Assembly: GCA_017477505.1 (NCBI GenBank)
Contig: JAFUVQ010000044.1
Span: 1 to 64,000, forward strand
Direction: 5' to 3'
DNA length: 64,000 bases
DNA from: Eubacterium sp.
Lineage (GTDB): Bacteria > Bacillota > Clostridia > Lachnospirales > Lachnospiraceae
Shown: positions 55,824-62,607 of the stretch, piece by piece
How the letters are laid out: every line of letters starts with the position of its first letter
Position numbering within the stretch: the stretch's first letter is position 1
Made by a program: the position numbers and the translations under genes
Notes under the pieces: generated by a model
The model's database searches: none
Seen by the model: the letters and a program-made list of their open reading frames with translations, nothing else
Told to the model about the DNA's origin: nothing

Positions 55824-55831
55824 GATATGAT

Positions 55832-55862
55832 AAAAATGGGCCGTGAAAATGGCCCATTTTTA
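55832..55862 (+). terminator. Rho-independent terminator
   Basis: AAAAATGGGCC pairs with GGCCCATTTTT around GTGAAAAT, with a T-run in the arm. It ends the amino-acid ABC operon and separates it from the acylation cluster downstream. Confidence 0.9.
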
Positions 55863-55944
55863 TTGCTTTACTTGCCACTGCATTTGCGATAGAATTATTA
55901 TCTGGGTATTATTGACAAAACGAAAGGAAACAAACTCAATTATT

Positions 55945-57114
55945 ATGGAAACCGCAACCGAAGTTAATGCTAAGAAAAAACCATTGACACGATTTGGTGA
56001 GTTTGAACTGCTGAAGGCCATAGCTATCCTGGGACTCCCGGCTGTTCATCTTTTAGAGGAGGCAGTTGAAGGAGGATTTGCCGATCCTTCTCTTATGAAA
56101 TTCGGTACTTTTGTCATAGGACTCTGTGCCTTCGGACCATCTGTATTTATGATATGCATGGGATTCGGCATAGGTGGTGGAAGGAATAAACCGGACGGCA
56201 TTATGAGAAACGGAATCCAGTTTCTTCTTATCGGAGCCATACTTAATATTTTCAGGTGGCTTATTCCGGGAATTATTCAGTCTGTAGTCGTTGATAAGAA
56301 TATCTGGGATGACGTGGAATTCTGTCTGGAGTCGGACATATATTATTTTGTTGGATTATTCTATATATTTTATTCGATACTGCTCAGGTTGAAAATTCAG
56401 ACTCCGGGTCTTCTGCTTACGAGTATTGTCACTCTTTCTCTGAATACACTTTTAACACCGCTTACGAGTGCACATATCACGAATCCGATAGTTGCTGCTC
56501 TTGTAGGTAATATCGTATACGTAAATGAAACAAGCTGCTTCCCGCTTCTGTCATGGGCAGTATTCCCTACAGTAGGTATCATTCTGGGAGAAGTTCTTAA
56601 AAAGACAAATGAAGAGCAGCGGGAGAATATCATGAAGAGGGTTCTCGATATATCAGGAGTGCTTTTCTTCTCATTTATAGTATTTCTCTGGACATATCAC
56701 ATTGATATAGAGAAGGCTCTGGTATCACCTGCAAATGACTATATTACGGATCTTCCGAATGTCGTACTTCTTATCAGTCTTGCATTATTTACTATAAGTA
56801 TTGCATATCATCTCTGTAAGCACATCGGAGCTTCTAAATTCATGGGATTCATGCTCCGTATATCGGCATTCATTATTCCGTTTTATCTTGCACAGTGGAT
56901 TATCATTGCATGGATTTTCTACATTATGGAAATTGTGGATGTTCCGGTTGAATGTTATACACCTTTATGGTATTTCGGGTGTGTAGTAGTAGTTACTCTG
57001 ATCTGTATTTTTATAGCTATTAAGCATGGAATGAAACTGATGAAGGTGCTGCTTAAGATTACCACTATCAAAACTAAGAAAAAGAAGAAGGATAAGAAAA
57101 ATGAGAAAAAATAA
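55945..57114 (+). CDS. Polytopic acyltransferase-like membrane protein, first gene of an ACP cluster
   Basis: About 389 residues with around ten transmembrane helices. The first helix reads FGEFELLKAIAILGLPAVHLLEEA, with a conserved-looking membrane His typical of acyltransferase-3/DUF1624-type enzymes. Later loops contain FGPSVFMICMGFGIGGGRN and FLLIGAILNIFRWLIPGI. The C terminus is a basic Lys-rich tail. I start at 55945 because the preceding 34 codons from an ATG at 55843 overlap the terminator and look non-coding; the ribosome binding site is weak. Its stop overlaps the AMP-ligase gene by 14 bp, so it is translationally coupled. It probably moves an acyl group across or onto the outer face of the membrane. 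Confidence 0.72.
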   Translation: METATEVNAKKKPLTRFGEFELLKAIAILGLPAVHLLEEAVEGGFADPSLMKFGTFVIGLCAFGPSVFMICMGFGIGGGRNKPDGIMRNGIQFLLIGAILNIFRWLIPGIIQSVVVDKNIWDDVEFCLESDIYYFVGLFYIFYSILLRLKIQTPGLLLTSIVTLSLNTLLTPLTSAHITNPIVAALVGNIVYVNETSCFPLLSWAVFPTVGIILGEVLKKTNEEQRENIMKRVLDISGVLFFSFIVFLWTYHIDIEKALVSPANDYITDLPNVVLLISLALFTISIAYHLCKHIGASKFMGFMLRISAFIIPFYLAQWIIIAWIFYIMEIVDVPVECYTPLWYFGCVVVVTLICIFIAIKHGMKLMKVLLKITTIKTKKKKKDKKNEKK

Positions 57115-58690
57115 AGACTATCCATTGTATGAAATTGCACCTAAGATCGGCAGTATAGCTGAAATGCTGAAGATTAAGGATGAAGTAATGCCGAACGACA
57201 TTGCCTTCAGATACAGAAAAGGACGCGAAGGTATCGAAGAGAAGACTTACGCCCAGGTTTACAAGGAAGTGAAGAAGGCTGCTTCCTGGATAGATTCAAA
57301 TTACGGACATAACAATCATATCGCTATAATAGGTGAAAACTCCTATGAATGGCTGGTTGCTTTTCTTGCAACCGTAACGACAGGAAATGTTGCGGTTCCT
57401 ATAGATAAGGAACTCCCGGCTGATGAGGTTGAGTGGCTTGTCAGGAAGGCTGATGTTACTAAAGTATTCATCTCCAAAACCTATAAGGATCTTGTAGAGA
57501 ATATTACGGATATACAGGCCATGACTCTAAAGGAACTCCAGACTGCATCAGAATCCGGAAATGAAGATTTTGAACTTATGACTCCGGATGACAGCGAGAC
57601 AGTAAGTATCTTCTTTACATCCGGTACTTCAGGAAAGAGCAAGGGCGTAATTCTCAGTCACAAGAATATTGTTTCCGAGATTAATGAGGCATCAGCGATG
57701 TTTGATCCGGAAGGAAGATCGACACTTGTGGTACTTCCTTTCCACCATACATTCGGACTTAATGTTGCCACGCTTATGGCATTTAATTATGGTGTAACTG
57801 TATTCCTTAACAAGAGCCTTAAGAGAGTTAAGGAAGATATAGCAGAGGCTAAGCCTGATGTAATCATGCTCGTACCTCTTTTCATAGAGACATTCTATAA
57901 GCGTATCATGGAAGGTATCAGGAAGAGCGGTCAGGAGAAGAAGGTGGAGAAGGGCGTCAAGATCAGTCAGGCTCTCCTTAAGGTCGGTATTGACAGAAGA
58001 AGGACTATGTTCAAGGCCATTCTTGATTTCTTTGGAGGTAATCTGAAGTATATCATCAGCGGCGGAGCACCTCTCAATTCATTTTACGTACAGGAATTCA
58101 GAAAGTTCGGTATTGAGATACTGAACGGATACGGAACAACCGAGTGTTCTCCATGTGTTGCCATCAACCGTAATTATTTCAAGAAGGACGGCAGCGTAGG
58201 GCAGGTTATTCATGGTACTGATGTGAAGATTTCCGACGATGGCGAGGTAATGTTCAAAGGTACAGTTATGATGCAGGGTTATTACAATGATCCTGAAAAG
58301 ACTGACGAAGTGATCAGAGATGGCTGGTACTGTACCGGCGATATCGGTTATATAGATGAAGACGGATTCCTCTTCCTTACAGGAAGAAAGAAGAATCTCA
58401 TAATTCTCAGCAACGGAGAGAATATTTCTCCTGAAGAAATTGAGAATGAACTCGGTACCGATCCGGGTGTATGTGAGGTTCTGGTATATGACAAGGATTC
58501 CAAGATTATTGCCGAGATATTCCCTGAGGAGGAATATAGAGGCAACCAGGAGCATTTCAATGAGCTTATGGCTAAGGTAAACGAAGGACGTCCTGTTTAT
58601 AAGCAGATTGCATCAGTGAAGCTCCGTGATGAGGAATTTATCAAGAATACCAGCAAGAAAATAATAAGATATAAAAACATACCACAATAA
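57101..58690 (+). CDS. AMP-forming acyl ligase (acyl-CoA/acyl-ACP synthetase type)
   Basis: 529 residues. Adenylation motifs: IFFTSGTSGKSKGVILSHKN (P-loop, ~170-190), LNGYGTTECSPCVAINR (A5), GWYCTGDIGYIDEDGFLFLTGRKKNLIILSNGENISPEEIE (A7-A8), and FIKNTSKKIIRYK with the catalytic Lys near the end. It activates a carboxylic acid as acyl-AMP and could load it onto the ACP encoded 38 bp downstream, as DltA does with D-alanine, or a fatty acid. No NRPS domains are attached. It overlaps the upstream acyltransferase gene by 14 bp. The acyl specificity cannot be read from the sequence by eye. Confidence 0.88.
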   Translation: MRKNKDYPLYEIAPKIGSIAEMLKIKDEVMPNDIAFRYRKGREGIEEKTYAQVYKEVKKAASWIDSNYGHNNHIAIIGENSYEWLVAFLATVTTGNVAVPIDKELPADEVEWLVRKADVTKVFISKTYKDLVENITDIQAMTLKELQTASESGNEDFELMTPDDSETVSIFFTSGTSGKSKGVILSHKNIVSEINEASAMFDPEGRSTLVVLPFHHTFGLNVATLMAFNYGVTVFLNKSLKRVKEDIAEAKPDVIMLVPLFIETFYKRIMEGIRKSGQEKKVEKGVKISQALLKVGIDRRRTMFKAILDFFGGNLKYIISGGAPLNSFYVQEFRKFGIEILNGYGTTECSPCVAINRNYFKKDGSVGQVIHGTDVKISDDGEVMFKGTVMMQGYYNDPEKTDEVIRDGWYCTGDIGYIDEDGFLFLTGRKKNLIILSNGENISPEEIENELGTDPGVCEVLVYDKDSKIIAEIFPEEEYRGNQEHFNELMAKVNEGRPVYKQIASVKLRDEEFIKNTSKKIIRYKNIPQ

Positions 58691-58728
58691 AAAATTAAAA
58701 ATATTATATTATATGGAGGTAACTTATA

Positions 58729-58956
58729 ATGTTTGAAAAGACAGTAGAAATCCTTGGAGAGTTTATTGACAACGATGGTGAAGAAATCACTATGGACAGC
58801 GCTCTTATCGATGATCTCGGACTCAGCTCACTTGACGTTATCAATGTGGTAGCTGCTTTTGAGGATGAATTCGATATCGATGTTCCTGATCGTGTGCTTC
58901 CAACACTTCGTACTGTTGGAGATATAGTAAATTATTTGGAAGAAAATGCAGAGTAA
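58729..58956 (+). CDS. Acyl carrier protein
   Basis: 75 residues, acidic, with the carrier motif DDLGLSSLDVINVVAAFEDEF; Ser34 is the likely phosphopantetheine site. It matches the length and helix pattern of ACP/DltC-type carriers. AGGAGG-like sequence (TGGAGGT) precedes the ATG. The following gene starts inside its last codons (58946), so the two are co-translated. Its position between an AMP ligase and a membrane nitrilase-fold enzyme makes it a dedicated carrier for this cluster rather than the fatty-acid-synthesis ACP. Confidence 0.92.
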   Translation: MFEKTVEILGEFIDNDGEEITMDSALIDDLGLSSLDVINVVAAFEDEFDIDVPDRVLPTLRTVGDIVNYLEENAE

Positions 58957-60463
58957 AACAAAACAATTTTACAGATATGCGTTATTTCTGATCGGAGTGA
59001 TATATTATATACTTCCGACATTTAACACGGAGAATGATATTCGTTATGTCATTTCTCCGTGGATATATATTACCTGCTTTCTTTATTATACCAGAACGAT
59101 AGAGAAGAAACGTGAATGGGGAATATTCAGTTTTGTCTTTTTAACGGCACATGAGTTTAGATATTCCGGTTTTCTGGGGGATACTGCGGCTTATTTTGAT
59201 TTTATTTCAATGCTTCTTATCATATTGATTGCAGCAGCTACCATTATCCCCTATTTTGTTGACCTCTTTTATTTGAAAAGAGGAAACGGATTCCTGAAAG
59301 TCTTTGCGTTTCCGTTTACCAGGGTTCTGGTAGAACGATTTATCGTGGGTCAGCAGTTCAATCTTTCGCTTTCCCAGTTTGGTAACAAATACCTGCTTCA
59401 GACTGTGTCCATATTCGGTGATGTTATCATTTCATTTATGGTAACATTTATCCCGTCTGTCATAGTATATATGATAGTAAAAAAAGATAATAAGAAGATG
59501 ATCCGTTATGGCTGTATCGCCCTTACGGTATTTGCTCTTCTGCTGGGGTACGGAGCGGCAAGATATCATCTTTCCGGAAGAGCGGCTGACAGAATAAGGA
59601 TGGCATATGCAACAGGTCCCAGAAAGACTTATTACGAAGAACCGTCTGAGGTTGATCCGACTTATGATGAATCACTTGAATATATGAAACGGACTGCCAC
59701 AGAGGCCGCGGCAAACGGGGCAGAACTGATCGCATATGCAGAAGAGGCTTTTATCATAGACAATGATGAAAGGCAGAGTTTCCTTGATGAAGTTTCAAAG
59801 GTTGCGAAAGAAAATAATATTTTCATGCTTGTATGCCTGGATATTGATGGCGGCGAGGACGTGTTTTATAACACGGCGGTTTTTATAGATAATAAGGGTG
59901 AGTTTCTTTCTGATTACACCAAATATTATCTTATACCTGTTATCGAAACATCGGAATATGTCGGAGGAAAAGGCGAGATTCCTTCGAATCATGTTATAAT
60001 AGGCGGTAAGGAGCATGTGATATCCTATTCGATATGCTATGATGCGACTTATACATCATATCTGGCATCCATGGACAAGAAGACTGATATATATATCAAT
60101 CCGTCCTGGGACTGGGAGGAGATTGATGATCTGAATTATCGTATGCAGGGAATGAGTGCGGTTGCTGCGGGTGTAGAACTGTTTAAACCTACCGTAGACG
60201 GATGGAGCATGGTCACTAATCCATATGGAAGAGTGACATATAAGGAGAGTACTCTACGTGGTGATTATGACAAAGTATATTATGCAGAGGTATCTCCGTG
60301 CAGAACATTTACACTTTATAAATTCCATACACCATTCTTTTTGGTTATTTGGACCCTGCTGGTTGGATTTATGCTTTTCGACATGTGCAGGATTATGATT
60401 AAATCCATCAAGGCAATGAGAAAAAAGAAGGCAGAAGCAAAGGCGGAAGCTAAGACAGAATAA
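58946..60463 (+). CDS. Lnt-like membrane protein with carbon-nitrogen hydrolase domain
   Basis: 505 residues. Six or so N-terminal transmembrane helices (LFLIGVIYYILPTF, PWIYITCFLYYT, FISMLLIILIAAATIIPYFV, etc.), then a nitrilase-fold outer domain (~215-460) and a final helix (FFLVIWTLLVGFMLFDMC), the layout of apolipoprotein N-acyltransferase. The expected triad is present: Glu266 (AYAEEAFII), Lys326 (SDYTKYYLIP) and Cys364 (SYSICYDATY). Classical Lnt acylates lipoprotein N termini using phospholipid in Gram-negatives; low-GC Gram-positives usually lack it. Here the gene overlaps an ACP gene, so the donor may be acyl-ACP or a product of the cluster. The acceptor is unknown. Confidence 0.85.
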   Translation: MQSKTKQFYRYALFLIGVIYYILPTFNTENDIRYVISPWIYITCFLYYTRTIEKKREWGIFSFVFLTAHEFRYSGFLGDTAAYFDFISMLLIILIAAATIIPYFVDLFYLKRGNGFLKVFAFPFTRVLVERFIVGQQFNLSLSQFGNKYLLQTVSIFGDVIISFMVTFIPSVIVYMIVKKDNKKMIRYGCIALTVFALLLGYGAARYHLSGRAADRIRMAYATGPRKTYYEEPSEVDPTYDESLEYMKRTATEAAANGAELIAYAEEAFIIDNDERQSFLDEVSKVAKENNIFMLVCLDIDGGEDVFYNTAVFIDNKGEFLSDYTKYYLIPVIETSEYVGGKGEIPSNHVIIGGKEHVISYSICYDATYTSYLASMDKKTDIYINPSWDWEEIDDLNYRMQGMSAVAAGVELFKPTVDGWSMVTNPYGRVTYKESTLRGDYDKVYYAEVSPCRTFTLYKFHTPFFLVIWTLLVGFMLFDMCRIMIKSIKAMRKKKAEAKAEAKTE

Positions 60464-60477
60464 GATTTGAGGTTTAT

Positions 60478-62607
60478 ATGGACGTTCTTTCGATTCTATA
60501 TCTTTTGGGCGGAGTAGGTCTTTTCCTATTCGGCATGAGTTTTATGGGTTCTTCTCTTGAAAAACTGGCGGGCGGAAGCCTTGAAAAGGTTCTGGAGAGA
60601 CTTACTACAAGTAAAAATAAAGCAGTAGGAAATGTCAAAGGCTGGGGACTCGGTACCGCAGTTACCGGTATCATCCAGAGCTCAGCTGCAACTACAATAA
60701 TGCTCATTGGTTTTGTAAATGCCGGTATCATGGGACTGGGTCAGTCCATTCCGGTTGTTTTCGGATCAAATGTGGGTAGTACTGTTACTGCACAGATACT
60801 CCGTCTCGGAGATCTCGGTGGCGGAAGTCTCATACTTAAGCTGCTGAAGCCTTCAAGTTTTGCACCTATGCTTGCATGTGTAGGCGCTTTTGTATATCTC
60901 TTTACGAAGAAGAGCAGGGTTAAGAATATTTCGGGTATCTTTATAGGACTCGGAATTCTTTTCTATGGAATGACTGCTATGGAGGAGGTTTTCCTTCCTC
61001 TCAGAGAATCAGAAAAGTTCCAGAGCTTCTTCACTTCATTCAGTAATCCTGTTGTCGGTATCCTGACCGGACTTGCCATAACGGCTCTGATTCAGAGCTC
61101 AAGTGCTTCGGTAGGTATTCTTCAGGCACTTTCTGCTACGGGGTCGGTCCGTTTTTCAACAGCTTTCCCTATAATCATAGGTCAGAACCTGGGAAAATGT
61201 ATGACTATAATTCTTGGTTCCATTGGTGCAAGCAAGAAGGCAAAGAGGGTTGCTCTTTCATATCTTCTCTTTAATATCTTTGGAGCCCTGCTTTTTGTGG
61301 CAGTAGTCTACGGACTTCAGTACACAATAGGACTTCCGTTTTTCCATAACATTATGAACCGTGGTAATATTGCAAATATCCACCTTGGATTCAATCTGAT
61401 AACGAGTATTGTACTGCTTCCTTTCACGGATGCCATGGAGAAACTGACAGGAAAGATCATCGGTGAGGAGAAGGTTTCAGAGGATGATAAGGAATTTGCG
61501 GCACTTGATGACAGATTGCTCCAGACTCCTACCATAGCTCTTCGTGAGTGTCGTAATCTCATTCACAGCATGATCGGCAGGATAAATGAGAATTATGACA
61601 TAAGTACCGGACTTATAAAAGCCTATGATGAAAAAATGTTTGAAAAGCTTCAGAAAAATGAAGCGTTTATCGACCGTTGTGAGACGGTTCTTTCCTCATA
61701 TATCGTAAGAATCGAGAGAAAGAGACTGTCAGCTGACCAGAGGCTGGTTGTTTCCGAAATCCTTAATTCCATAAGTGACTTTGAACGTATGGGAGATTAT
61801 TCCATTAATATAGCTTATGTGGCAAAGGAAATGCATGAGAAGGGCATAGGCTTTTCCCAGATCGGAAGCTACGAAGTAAATACAATGATTGATGCGGCAA
61901 AGTATTCTCTGGATACTCTTGAGAAAGCTTTCCTGGATGTGAACGAGAAAATGGCTTCGCGTGTCGAACCTCTCGAGGATACCATTAAGAAGCTTACTGC
62001 TATCATAAAGGGACACCATGTTGACAGACTTCAGGACGGTCGCTGCAGCGTAGAGAGCGGTGTTGCACTTTTTGACCTTATAACCTGTTTTGAAAGAATA
62101 TCGGCTCATGCAACAAATGTATCCCTTCATGTTCTCAAGAGAATCAGGGGAGAGAAGGATTTCGACGAGATGCACGGACATTCCGCGGACAGATCCGGTA
62201 TCGAATATCAGTCACTTATTAATTTCTATGAAAATAAATATCTGAGACCTGTTGTTAATCCGCCTGAGGATCTTCTGGTGGTTGAGGAAGCAAGAGTTAC
62301 AGCTCCGGAAGAAGAAAGTGATGTAATGTCTGAAGCTGCAACCGAAAAGACTGAGAAAGATAAGGTCGATAAAACTGAAAAGACCAAGTTAGATAAGGCC
62401 AGGGCAGAGAAAGCCAAGTCCGAAAAAGATAAGGCAGATAAGAACAAATCTGACAAGAAGGCCAAGTCTGATAAGAAGGATGCAGGTAAGGAAATCAGAG
62501 ATAAGATAAAGGATAAGGCGAAAGATAAAGTAAAGGTAAAAGAAAAAGTAAAAGAAAAGGTTAAAGAGAAGGCTAAGGACAGAGAGAAGGATAAGGATAG
62601 CAAATAA
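60478..62607 (+). CDS. Na/Pi-cotransporter family protein with PhoU-like domain and charged tail
   Basis: 709 residues. Helices with the duplicated QSS motif (GTAVTGIIQSSAATTIMLIGF, ALIQSSSASVGILQALSATG) identify the NptA/YjbB family. Residues ~340-590 form a PhoU-like helical domain (LLQTPTIALRECRNLIHSMI..., ILNSISDFERMGDYSINIA). The last ~90 residues are an unusual Lys/Asp/Glu-rich repeat (DKVDKTEKTKLDKARAEKAK-type, then KVKVKEKVKEKVKEK). It starts 15 bp after the Lnt-like gene and overlaps the next by one base, so it belongs to the same operon. The transported ion is inferred to be phosphate. Confidence 0.88.
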   Translation: MDVLSILYLLGGVGLFLFGMSFMGSSLEKLAGGSLEKVLERLTTSKNKAVGNVKGWGLGTAVTGIIQSSAATTIMLIGFVNAGIMGLGQSIPVVFGSNVGSTVTAQILRLGDLGGGSLILKLLKPSSFAPMLACVGAFVYLFTKKSRVKNISGIFIGLGILFYGMTAMEEVFLPLRESEKFQSFFTSFSNPVVGILTGLAITALIQSSSASVGILQALSATGSVRFSTAFPIIIGQNLGKCMTIILGSIGASKKAKRVALSYLLFNIFGALLFVAVVYGLQYTIGLPFFHNIMNRGNIANIHLGFNLITSIVLLPFTDAMEKLTGKIIGEEKVSEDDKEFAALDDRLLQTPTIALRECRNLIHSMIGRINENYDISTGLIKAYDEKMFEKLQKNEAFIDRCETVLSSYIVRIERKRLSADQRLVVSEILNSISDFERMGDYSINIAYVAKEMHEKGIGFSQIGSYEVNTMIDAAKYSLDTLEKAFLDVNEKMASRVEPLEDTIKKLTAIIKGHHVDRLQDGRCSVESGVALFDLITCFERISAHATNVSLHVLKRIRGEKDFDEMHGHSADRSGIEYQSLINFYENKYLRPVVNPPEDLLVVEEARVTAPEEESDVMSEAATEKTEKDKVDKTEKTKLDKARAEKAKSEKDKADKNKSDKKAKSDKKDAGKEIRDKIKDKAKDKVKVKEKVKEKVKEKAKDREKDKDSK

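Follow-up and report, generated by a model that had tools for sequence, protein, structure and literature searches.

Four adjacent genes at positions 55945 to 60463 of a 64,000-nucleotide stretch of Eubacterium sp. DNA (Lachnospiraceae; contig JAFUVQ010000044.1, positions 1 to 64,000 of the forward strand; the whole stretch is called the window here) almost certainly form a real functional unit. They encode a polytopic membrane protein of AT3/TmAT type, an AMP-forming ligase, a dedicated acyl carrier protein (ACP) and a membrane protein with a nitrilase-fold domain that resembles Lnt. The chance that all four serve as one envelope-acylation relay, with the Lnt-like protein as the last step, we put just short of even. 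At the level of sequence, what is established is the integrity of the unit, the family relationships of its proteins, their intact active-site residues and the absence of an arginine in the third transmembrane helix (TM3) of the membrane protein. The genes are as follows.

55945..57114, forward strand: polytopic membrane protein, AT3/TmAT-type acyltransferase, 389 aa (open reading frame)
57101..58690, forward strand: AMP-forming acyl ligase, proposed ACP loader, 529 aa (PF00501, alignment of 8, tree)
58729..58956, forward strand: dedicated acyl carrier protein, 75 aa (PF00550, alignment of 9)
58946..60463, forward strand: Lnt-like membrane protein with nitrilase-fold domain, proposed terminal N-acyltransferase, 505 aa (PF00795)

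The membrane gene and the ligase gene overlap by 14 bp, a gap of 38 bp separates the ligase and ACP genes, and the ACP and Lnt-like genes overlap by 11 bp; an earlier note on this DNA had given the same genes, coordinates and spacing.

Conservation of the four-gene unit

The Lnt-like protein was searched for in 99 related genomes, 61 of them from the same genus (g1). A close copy (47–100% identity) is present in six of the 61 g1 genomes, and G031 and G088 gave only weak matches, to shorter nitrilase-type genes. All six g1 carriers, namely that of the window and five other species, have the order membrane acyltransferase, ligase, ACP, Lnt-like protein; for G059, where a contig break falls within the ligase, this order is inferred. 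In G023 (L021:6405-7559) the membrane gene contains a stop, reflecting either decay or an assembly error, and the ligase, ACP and Lnt-like genes are open. A seventh unit with the same four-gene order was found in G100, which belongs to another genus of the same family, so the co-occurrence in several genera to which the earlier note had looked for support is seen in two. Because the same four genes recur in the same order in other genomes, their linkage is not due to chance. Nor is it an inherited neighbourhood, since the flanking proteins are unrelated between loci: a comparison across nine loci (window, L018 to L022, L091, L095 and L161) at E <= 1e-10 and at least 30% identity gave only three cross-locus matches, all at 31–34% identity, and none of the flanking genes accompanies the unit throughout the loci compared.

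The ACP and Lnt-like genes overlap in all eight units measured, by 11 bp in six and 14 bp in two, and the other intergenic gaps within the unit range from -14 to 38 bp (five units measured). A close membrane protein (at least 57% identity) occurs in seven g1 genomes, all among the 61, and in G100. Both the membrane and the Lnt-like protein are encoded in six of the 61 g1 genomes, the membrane protein only in one, the Lnt-like protein only in none and neither in 54 (Fisher p = 1.3e-7, a value that ignores kinship, from a table that assumes that the membrane-protein search covered the same 61 genomes). The one genome with the membrane protein only is G051, in which membrane gene, ligase and ACP run to the end of a 3.1-kb contig. 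Pairwise identity correlations among the four genes are uneven (r from 0.24 to 0.89 over 10 non-independent pairs) and were given no weight.

A search of 397 genomes of the family found close Lnt-like copies in G000 and G100 only and remote full-length Lnt-like proteins in G482, G453 and G298, the other seven of the 12 matches being short nitrilase-type open reading frames. An order-wide search with the Lnt model (146 genomes) added G979, a member of another family (f8), in which a contig starts inside the ligase (81% identity over 219 aa) and continues with the ACP (83%) and the Lnt-like protein (50%). The G+C content of this cassette (0.487) is close to that of its own flank (0.497), the g1 cassettes measured having 0.39–0.40. 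A racemase-like gene on that contig, compared over its first 225 residues, shows 53%, 46% and 47% identity to the top copy in each of three f8 genomes, 33–41% to G375, G312 and G100, and 35–36% to two g1 genomes. Because the G+C content matches the flank and the racemase-like gene is closest to f8, a transfer of the unit between families seems to have taken place. With G979 77% complete and the only carrier among 19 f8 genomes, and with one flanking gene tested, its ligase-ACP-Lnt end may still be a binning error. Across the phylum (398 genomes, E <= 1e-25) the membrane profile returned the window's genome and three remote AT3-type proteins; this search gave no close copy beyond g1, and in the stretches read neither a ligase nor an ACP match lies beside the three remote proteins. 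Scans of viral contigs with the Lnt-like and membrane alignments found no relative, and anti-phage defence was rejected as a function after PADLOC gave no match for any of the four proteins.

A more distant arrangement is found in G482, from another genus, where an ACP (39% identity), a membrane protein (39%) and a ligase (32%) stand in a row in an order that differs from that of the cassette. The membrane protein groups with the cassette clade in the tree, and the ligase falls outside the cassette ligases on a long branch, a placement that is unsure. In G482, therefore, an AT3-like protein of the cassette clade is linked with an ACP although the ligase seems to belong to another line.

The proteins of the unit

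The window ligase matches PF00501 with 206.8 bits (cut-off 29.9), which bears out its earlier assignment as AMP-forming, and its family scores are spread over fatty-acyl, malonyl and succinylbenzoate ligases. At E <= 1e-80, 56 of the 61 g1 genomes have at least one such ligase, eight of these being of cassette type (at least 70% identity). The ligase paralogue is about 50% identical to the cassette ligase, and at six paralogue loci (L082 to L084 and L086 to L088, the ligase of L085 having been missed in gene calling) no neighbouring open reading frame matches the window ACP at E <= 1e-5. When 39 ligases are placed in a tree, the eight of the cassette do not form one clade in the best tree and do so in 62% of bootstrap trees. 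We regard it as likely that the ligase loads the dedicated ACP.

The ACP itself matches PF00550 with 46.1 bits (cut-off 20.8), and the serine that the earlier note had pointed out is invariant.

58828..58830, forward strand: codon of Ser34, phosphopantetheine attachment site (invariant in 9/9 aligned cassette ACPs)

The earlier note would have given up its proposal had the ligase pocket and this carrier been those of a known dlt or fatty acid synthesis system. The carrier scores 19.2 bits against the DltC model NF003464 (cut-off 68) and is not that of a known dlt system. Against the fatty acid synthesis model TIGR00517 it reaches 63.6 bits (cut-off 70.45), no fab gene lies beside it in the window, and the genome has another ACP (C2) near genes that are fab-like when read by eye; on these three grounds a housekeeping fatty-acid-synthesis ACP was rejected, and the carrier is probably distinct from fatty acid synthesis.

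Other arrangements of ligases and carriers were observed alongside. Ligase-ACP clusters with PlsC-like acyltransferases occur at L104:6500-11351 and L089:6821-10171 (PF01553 was tested in L089 only). A condensation-domain-like gene (by eye), an ACP and an AMP-forming ligase stand in a row at L102:5511-8968 in the window genome and at L146:3807-6994 in G100. At L105:7038-11815, also in the window genome, an ACP lies near MBOAT-like and HAD-like genes (by eye), perhaps for a carrier-fed O-acylation of the envelope.

The window membrane protein has no Pfam match, and its profile gave no match among solved structures. Direct Pfam scans of proteins of the cassette clade likewise stayed below cut-off (none for the window and L129; DUF418 at 18.0 against 23.6 bits for L018). 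The profile does find relatives at 47–113 bits and about 25% identity, many of them in the same genomes; among these, L097 and L098 pass the cut-off of PF01757 (Acyl_transf_3) and L132 that of PF07786 (HGSNAT_cat). Because these relatives pass, the membrane protein is by profile a member of the AT3/TmAT superfamily, which gives a family to what had been described as a polytopic acyltransferase-like protein.

We compared 32 distinct candidates and the window protein, leaving out L025 (a duplicate of the window) and L042 (a fragment), so that eight ACP-linked proteins and 23 others remained; L035, L036 and L038 among the latter are near-copies. The eight ACP-linked proteins, that of G482 included, form one clade (100/99). 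None of the 23 other relatives has an ACP match within about 1.5 kb, and a ligase lies within that distance beside L128 only, which keeps the TM3 arginine. The window protein contains E21, K24 and H35 in TM1, F68-x4-G73 (the FxxxxG motif) in TM2, and Y314, which is equated with TMH9-Tyr by alignment only. All eight ACP-linked proteins keep the TM1 Glu/Asp-x-x-Lys, His35, the TM2 F-x4-G, a glycine in the TM6 region and Tyr314.

56014..56016, forward strand: codon of Lys24, TM1 (R/K)-x10-H (Lys in 8/8 ACP-linked proteins; Lys in 18 and Arg in 5 of the 23 others)
56047..56049, forward strand: codon of His35, TM1 motif (His in 8/8 and 23/23)
56209..56211, forward strand: codon of Asn89, at the position where AT3-type relatives have the TM3 Arg (alignment)

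Position 89 is arginine in all 23 other relatives, and in the eight ACP-linked proteins it is Asn (six), Ser (one) or Gln (one); membrane-protein fragments from G488 and G023 also have Asn. Twenty-one columns have one residue in at least 90% of the 23, and that residue is absent from all eight at positions 65, 78, 89, 136 and 223. The first arginine of the TMH3 motif is described as conserved in most TmAT members, with conserved residues lining the acyl-CoA site (PMC12423673; this and the other papers are cited for the parts of their text drawn on here). The phosphopantetheine of an ACP has no 3'-phosphoadenosine, and for this reason loss of the TM3 arginine, as read from the alignment, fits a carrier-bound donor. 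On balance we lean towards acyl-ACP as the donor of the AT3-like protein.

A separate observation concerns L132:5484-8609 (G156), where the HGSNAT_cat-type membrane protein adjoins an AMP-binding ligase fused to STAS, and a further STAS gene stands alone next to the two. In this AT3-type protein the TM3 arginine is kept, and this is possibly a ligase-AT3 pair under STAS control.

The Lnt-like protein passes PF00795 (42.8 bits, cut-off 23.2) and stays below the cut-offs of LNT_N (17.5 against 27.1 bits) and TIGR00546 (67.1 against 132.9 bits); having failed the latter, it was rejected as a classical Lnt. The nine Lnt-like proteins that were aligned, two of them remote, share the following residues.

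59741..59743, forward strand: codon of Glu266, catalytic Glu position (invariant 9/9)
59921..59923, forward strand: codon of Lys326, catalytic Lys position (invariant 9/9)
59945..59947, forward strand: codon of Glu334, position of Lnt E343 (invariant 9/9)
60035..60037, forward strand: codon of Cys364, catalytic Cys position (invariant 9/9)

By motif and order these correspond to the four Lnt catalytic positions, the same four that are described for Lnt and AatD (PMC7943197). With the profile of all nine sequences the best solved structure is an Lnt (5n6m, 7.4e-12), and a crude hydropathy analysis of five of the proteins suggests four to six segments before the nitrilase domain and one after it. 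The earlier description as an Lnt-like enzyme of nitrilase fold thus stands, given the PF00795 match and the four residues kept.

Low-GC Gram-positive bacteria are described, in the parts of the two papers cited, as lacking Lnt (PMC7530257; PMC3850990). In the 146 genomes of the order TIGR00546 gives a match at E <= 1e-6 in 32 and exceeds its cut-off in one, G312. This genome, of a low-GC Gram-positive family, encodes a lone protein (L157:7372-9000) with CN_hydrolase and LNT_N domains that reaches 266 bits against the Lnt model; the 16 kb read contain no match to ligase, ACP or AT3.

A possible acylation relay and its rivals

If the four proteins act in one relay, the order would be ligase, ACP, AT3-like protein, Cys364 of the Lnt-like protein and an outer amine, each transfer being our interpretation of the families concerned. 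The ligase would use ATP to activate a carboxylic acid, probably a fatty acid, and load it onto the ACP phosphopantetheine. The AT3/TmAT-type protein would then dock acyl-ACP instead of acyl-CoA and move the acyl group to the outer face, a step that is supported by the gene linkage and the altered acyl-CoA site. The outward-facing Lnt-like enzyme would, like Lnt, bind the acyl group to its cysteine (Cys364) in a thioester and pass it to an outer amine (N-acylation), for example the N-terminus of diacyl lipoproteins; these, Lnt's own acceptors, may also be those of the unit. The Lnt-like enzyme would in this way fill the role of the SGNH domain in OatA, or of PatB for PatA, for which AT3-to-SGNH and MBOAT-to-SGNH relays are described (PMC12148441; PMC9558356). 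The earlier note had proposed acylation by two unrelated transferases; the two families are supported, and we read them as successive members of a relay, not as two separate transferases.

Several points weigh against the relay or its carrier-bound donor. AT3 proteins are known to use acyl-CoA, and ACP has been judged an unlikely donor (PMC9558356); the donor of Lnt is phospholipid (PMC5500890). The equation of position 89 with the TMH3-Arg of the papers is our reading of an alignment, an Arg or Lys stands one position earlier (88) in seven of the eight ACP-linked proteins, and four other well-conserved columns (65, 78, 136 and 223) are also split fully by class. In simulations of OafB the CoA 3'-phosphate is contacted by the second arginine of RXXR, Arg74 (PMC9833829), whereas the arginine conserved across the superfamily is the first. 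The TM3 change is a single event in one clade and could mean another donor or an altered activity. The seven cassette Lnt-like sequences alone hit one solved structure, a soluble carbon-nitrogen hydrolase (3p8k, 1.7e-4). Linkage, too, holds only in part: the four-gene order is kept in two genera, but G006 (L090:981-2881) has ligase and ACP without membrane and Lnt-like genes beside them, in flanks that look like rpoC and rpsL, the Lnt-like protein of G482 (28% identity) is encoded on another contig, and in G298 and G453 a remote Lnt-like gene stands alone.

Some of these points favour a different account, in which two separate envelope modifications draw on one acyl-ACP supply, the AT3-like protein acylating a glycan or lipid head group alone and the Lnt-like protein being a co-transcribed, phospholipid-dependent lipoprotein N-acyltransferase. 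AT3-only proteins are thought to act alone in many systems (PMC9558356), the phospholipid donor of Lnt (PMC5500890) would suit it, and G482 keeps ACP, AT3-like protein and ligase together while its Lnt-like gene is unlinked. Against this, the overlap of the ACP and Lnt-like genes in every one of the eight units measured ties the Lnt-like protein to the carrier gene, and the g1 genomes contain both proteins (six) or the AT3-like protein alone (one, at a contig end) and never the Lnt-like protein alone. We consider this account unlikely, though it is one to be reckoned with.

The flow could also run inward, with the nitrilase-fold protein facing outward and cleaving N-acyl compounds as an amidase, the membrane protein importing the acid or acyl group, and ligase and ACP recapturing it for lipid synthesis. 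Most soluble nitrilase relatives whose structures are solved go by the name of hydrolase or amidase, and ligase-ACP pairs adjoin PlsC-like acyltransferases at L089 and L104 (Pfam test in L089 only). Such salvage is made improbable by the invariant Glu at the position of Lnt E343, by an Lnt as the top solved structure for the nine-sequence profile, and by descriptions of AT3 proteins as moving acyl groups outward, with doubts for some antibiotic-modifying members (PMC9833829, PMC9558356, PMC12423673). Least probable of the three is that the product of the unit is an exported N-acyl amino acid or short lipopeptide, the Lnt-like protein joining acid and amine outside: the patchy distribution, with one apparent passage from family to family, is as in specialised metabolism, but none of the genes flanking the unit recurs at all the loci compared, and the condensation-domain-like gene with ACP and ligase (L102, by eye) lies elsewhere in the genome.

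Among known systems the relay reading resembles in plan dltABCD, which also combines an AMP-forming ligase, a dedicated carrier, a membrane transferase and a second transferase, with charging inside and attachment outside. In the unit, however, the membrane transferase is of AT3/TmAT type rather than MBOAT, and the last protein is of nitrilase fold and Lnt-like rather than DltD. No MBOAT (DltB-type) match was found in the window membrane protein, its scanned relatives being PF01757/PF07786, and DltD (PF04914) has no match in the window's genome, in a scan that detected it in two of 14 controls, B. subtilis and L. lactis; together with the DltC score below cut-off, this led us to reject a dlt operon. 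The AT3-SGNH systems (OatA, OafB) and the MBOAT-SGNH system (PatA/PatB) have in common with the unit a membrane acyltransferase which, it is proposed, passes its acyl group to an outer transferase of hydrolase fold. They differ in that the known AT3 donor is acyl-CoA, whereas the unit has a linked ACP and ligase and has lost the TM3 arginine, and in that the outer partner in the unit is a Cys enzyme of nitrilase fold. Lnt has membrane segments before and after the nitrilase domain, as hydropathy suggests for the unit's protein too, and the catalytic positions matched by E266, K326, E334 and C364; the unit's protein, in contrast, falls under the family cut-off, is embedded in a ligase-ACP-AT3 unit and occurs in a low-GC Gram-positive family, a group said to be without Lnt (PMC7530257). 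AatD, an Lnt homologue that acylates an N-terminal glycine, likewise has Lnt-type catalytic residues and a dedicated, non-classical role (PMC7943197), but it reportedly suffices to acylate its substrate in E. coli, and it is accompanied by an ABC/type-I-like exporter, not by ligase, ACP and AT3.

Setting and meaning of the unit

Two consensus matches lie between the unit and the gene upstream.

55828..55865, forward strand: intrinsic terminator-like stem, 17 pairs, 3' of the upstream ABC transporter substrate-binding gene (consensus scan only)
55872..55901, forward strand: promoter-like site TTGCCA-18-TATTAT, 10/12 match, 5' of the first gene (consensus scan)

Because a terminator-like stem is followed by a promoter-like site, both consensus matches only, the unit probably starts its own transcript, apart from upstream transcription; 22 promoter-like sites were found against 15.1 expected in shuffles, which lends the site at 55872..55901 weak support. 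The next gene downstream, starting 14 bp after the Lnt-like gene, encodes a Na/Pi cotransporter (60478-62607), and no match to it lies beside the unit in the other loci read. The common ligase paralogue precedes a Na/Pi cotransporter gene at L086:7497-11299 and L088:7851-11593, 56% identical to that of the window.

Each part of the unit is of a known family and its working plan is dlt-like; the combination was not found described. Among the matches listed in our literature searches, titles and abstract openings mention no ACP-fed AT3 protein, no ACP-linked Lnt and no such combination. An AT3/TmAT protein fed by a dedicated carrier and handing its acyl group to an outward Cys transferase of nitrilase fold would be a third kind of trans-membrane relay, one that makes amides, and would provide an Lnt-type enzyme with a cytoplasmic acyl supply; this we put forward tentatively and with some doubt. 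If it is true, loss of the TM3 arginine would mark carrier-fed AT3 proteins at the level of sequence. It stands open whether an AT3 protein that has no SGNH domain fused to it requires a partner, 'SGNH or otherwise', and the donor of such proteins is taken to be acyl-CoA (PMC9558356); the unit offers a natural case of an AT3 protein with a different partner and a linked carrier, with a single residue as a handle. It also bears on how low-GC Gram-positive bacteria, which are said to be without Lnt (PMC7530257), could N-acylate molecules of their envelope.

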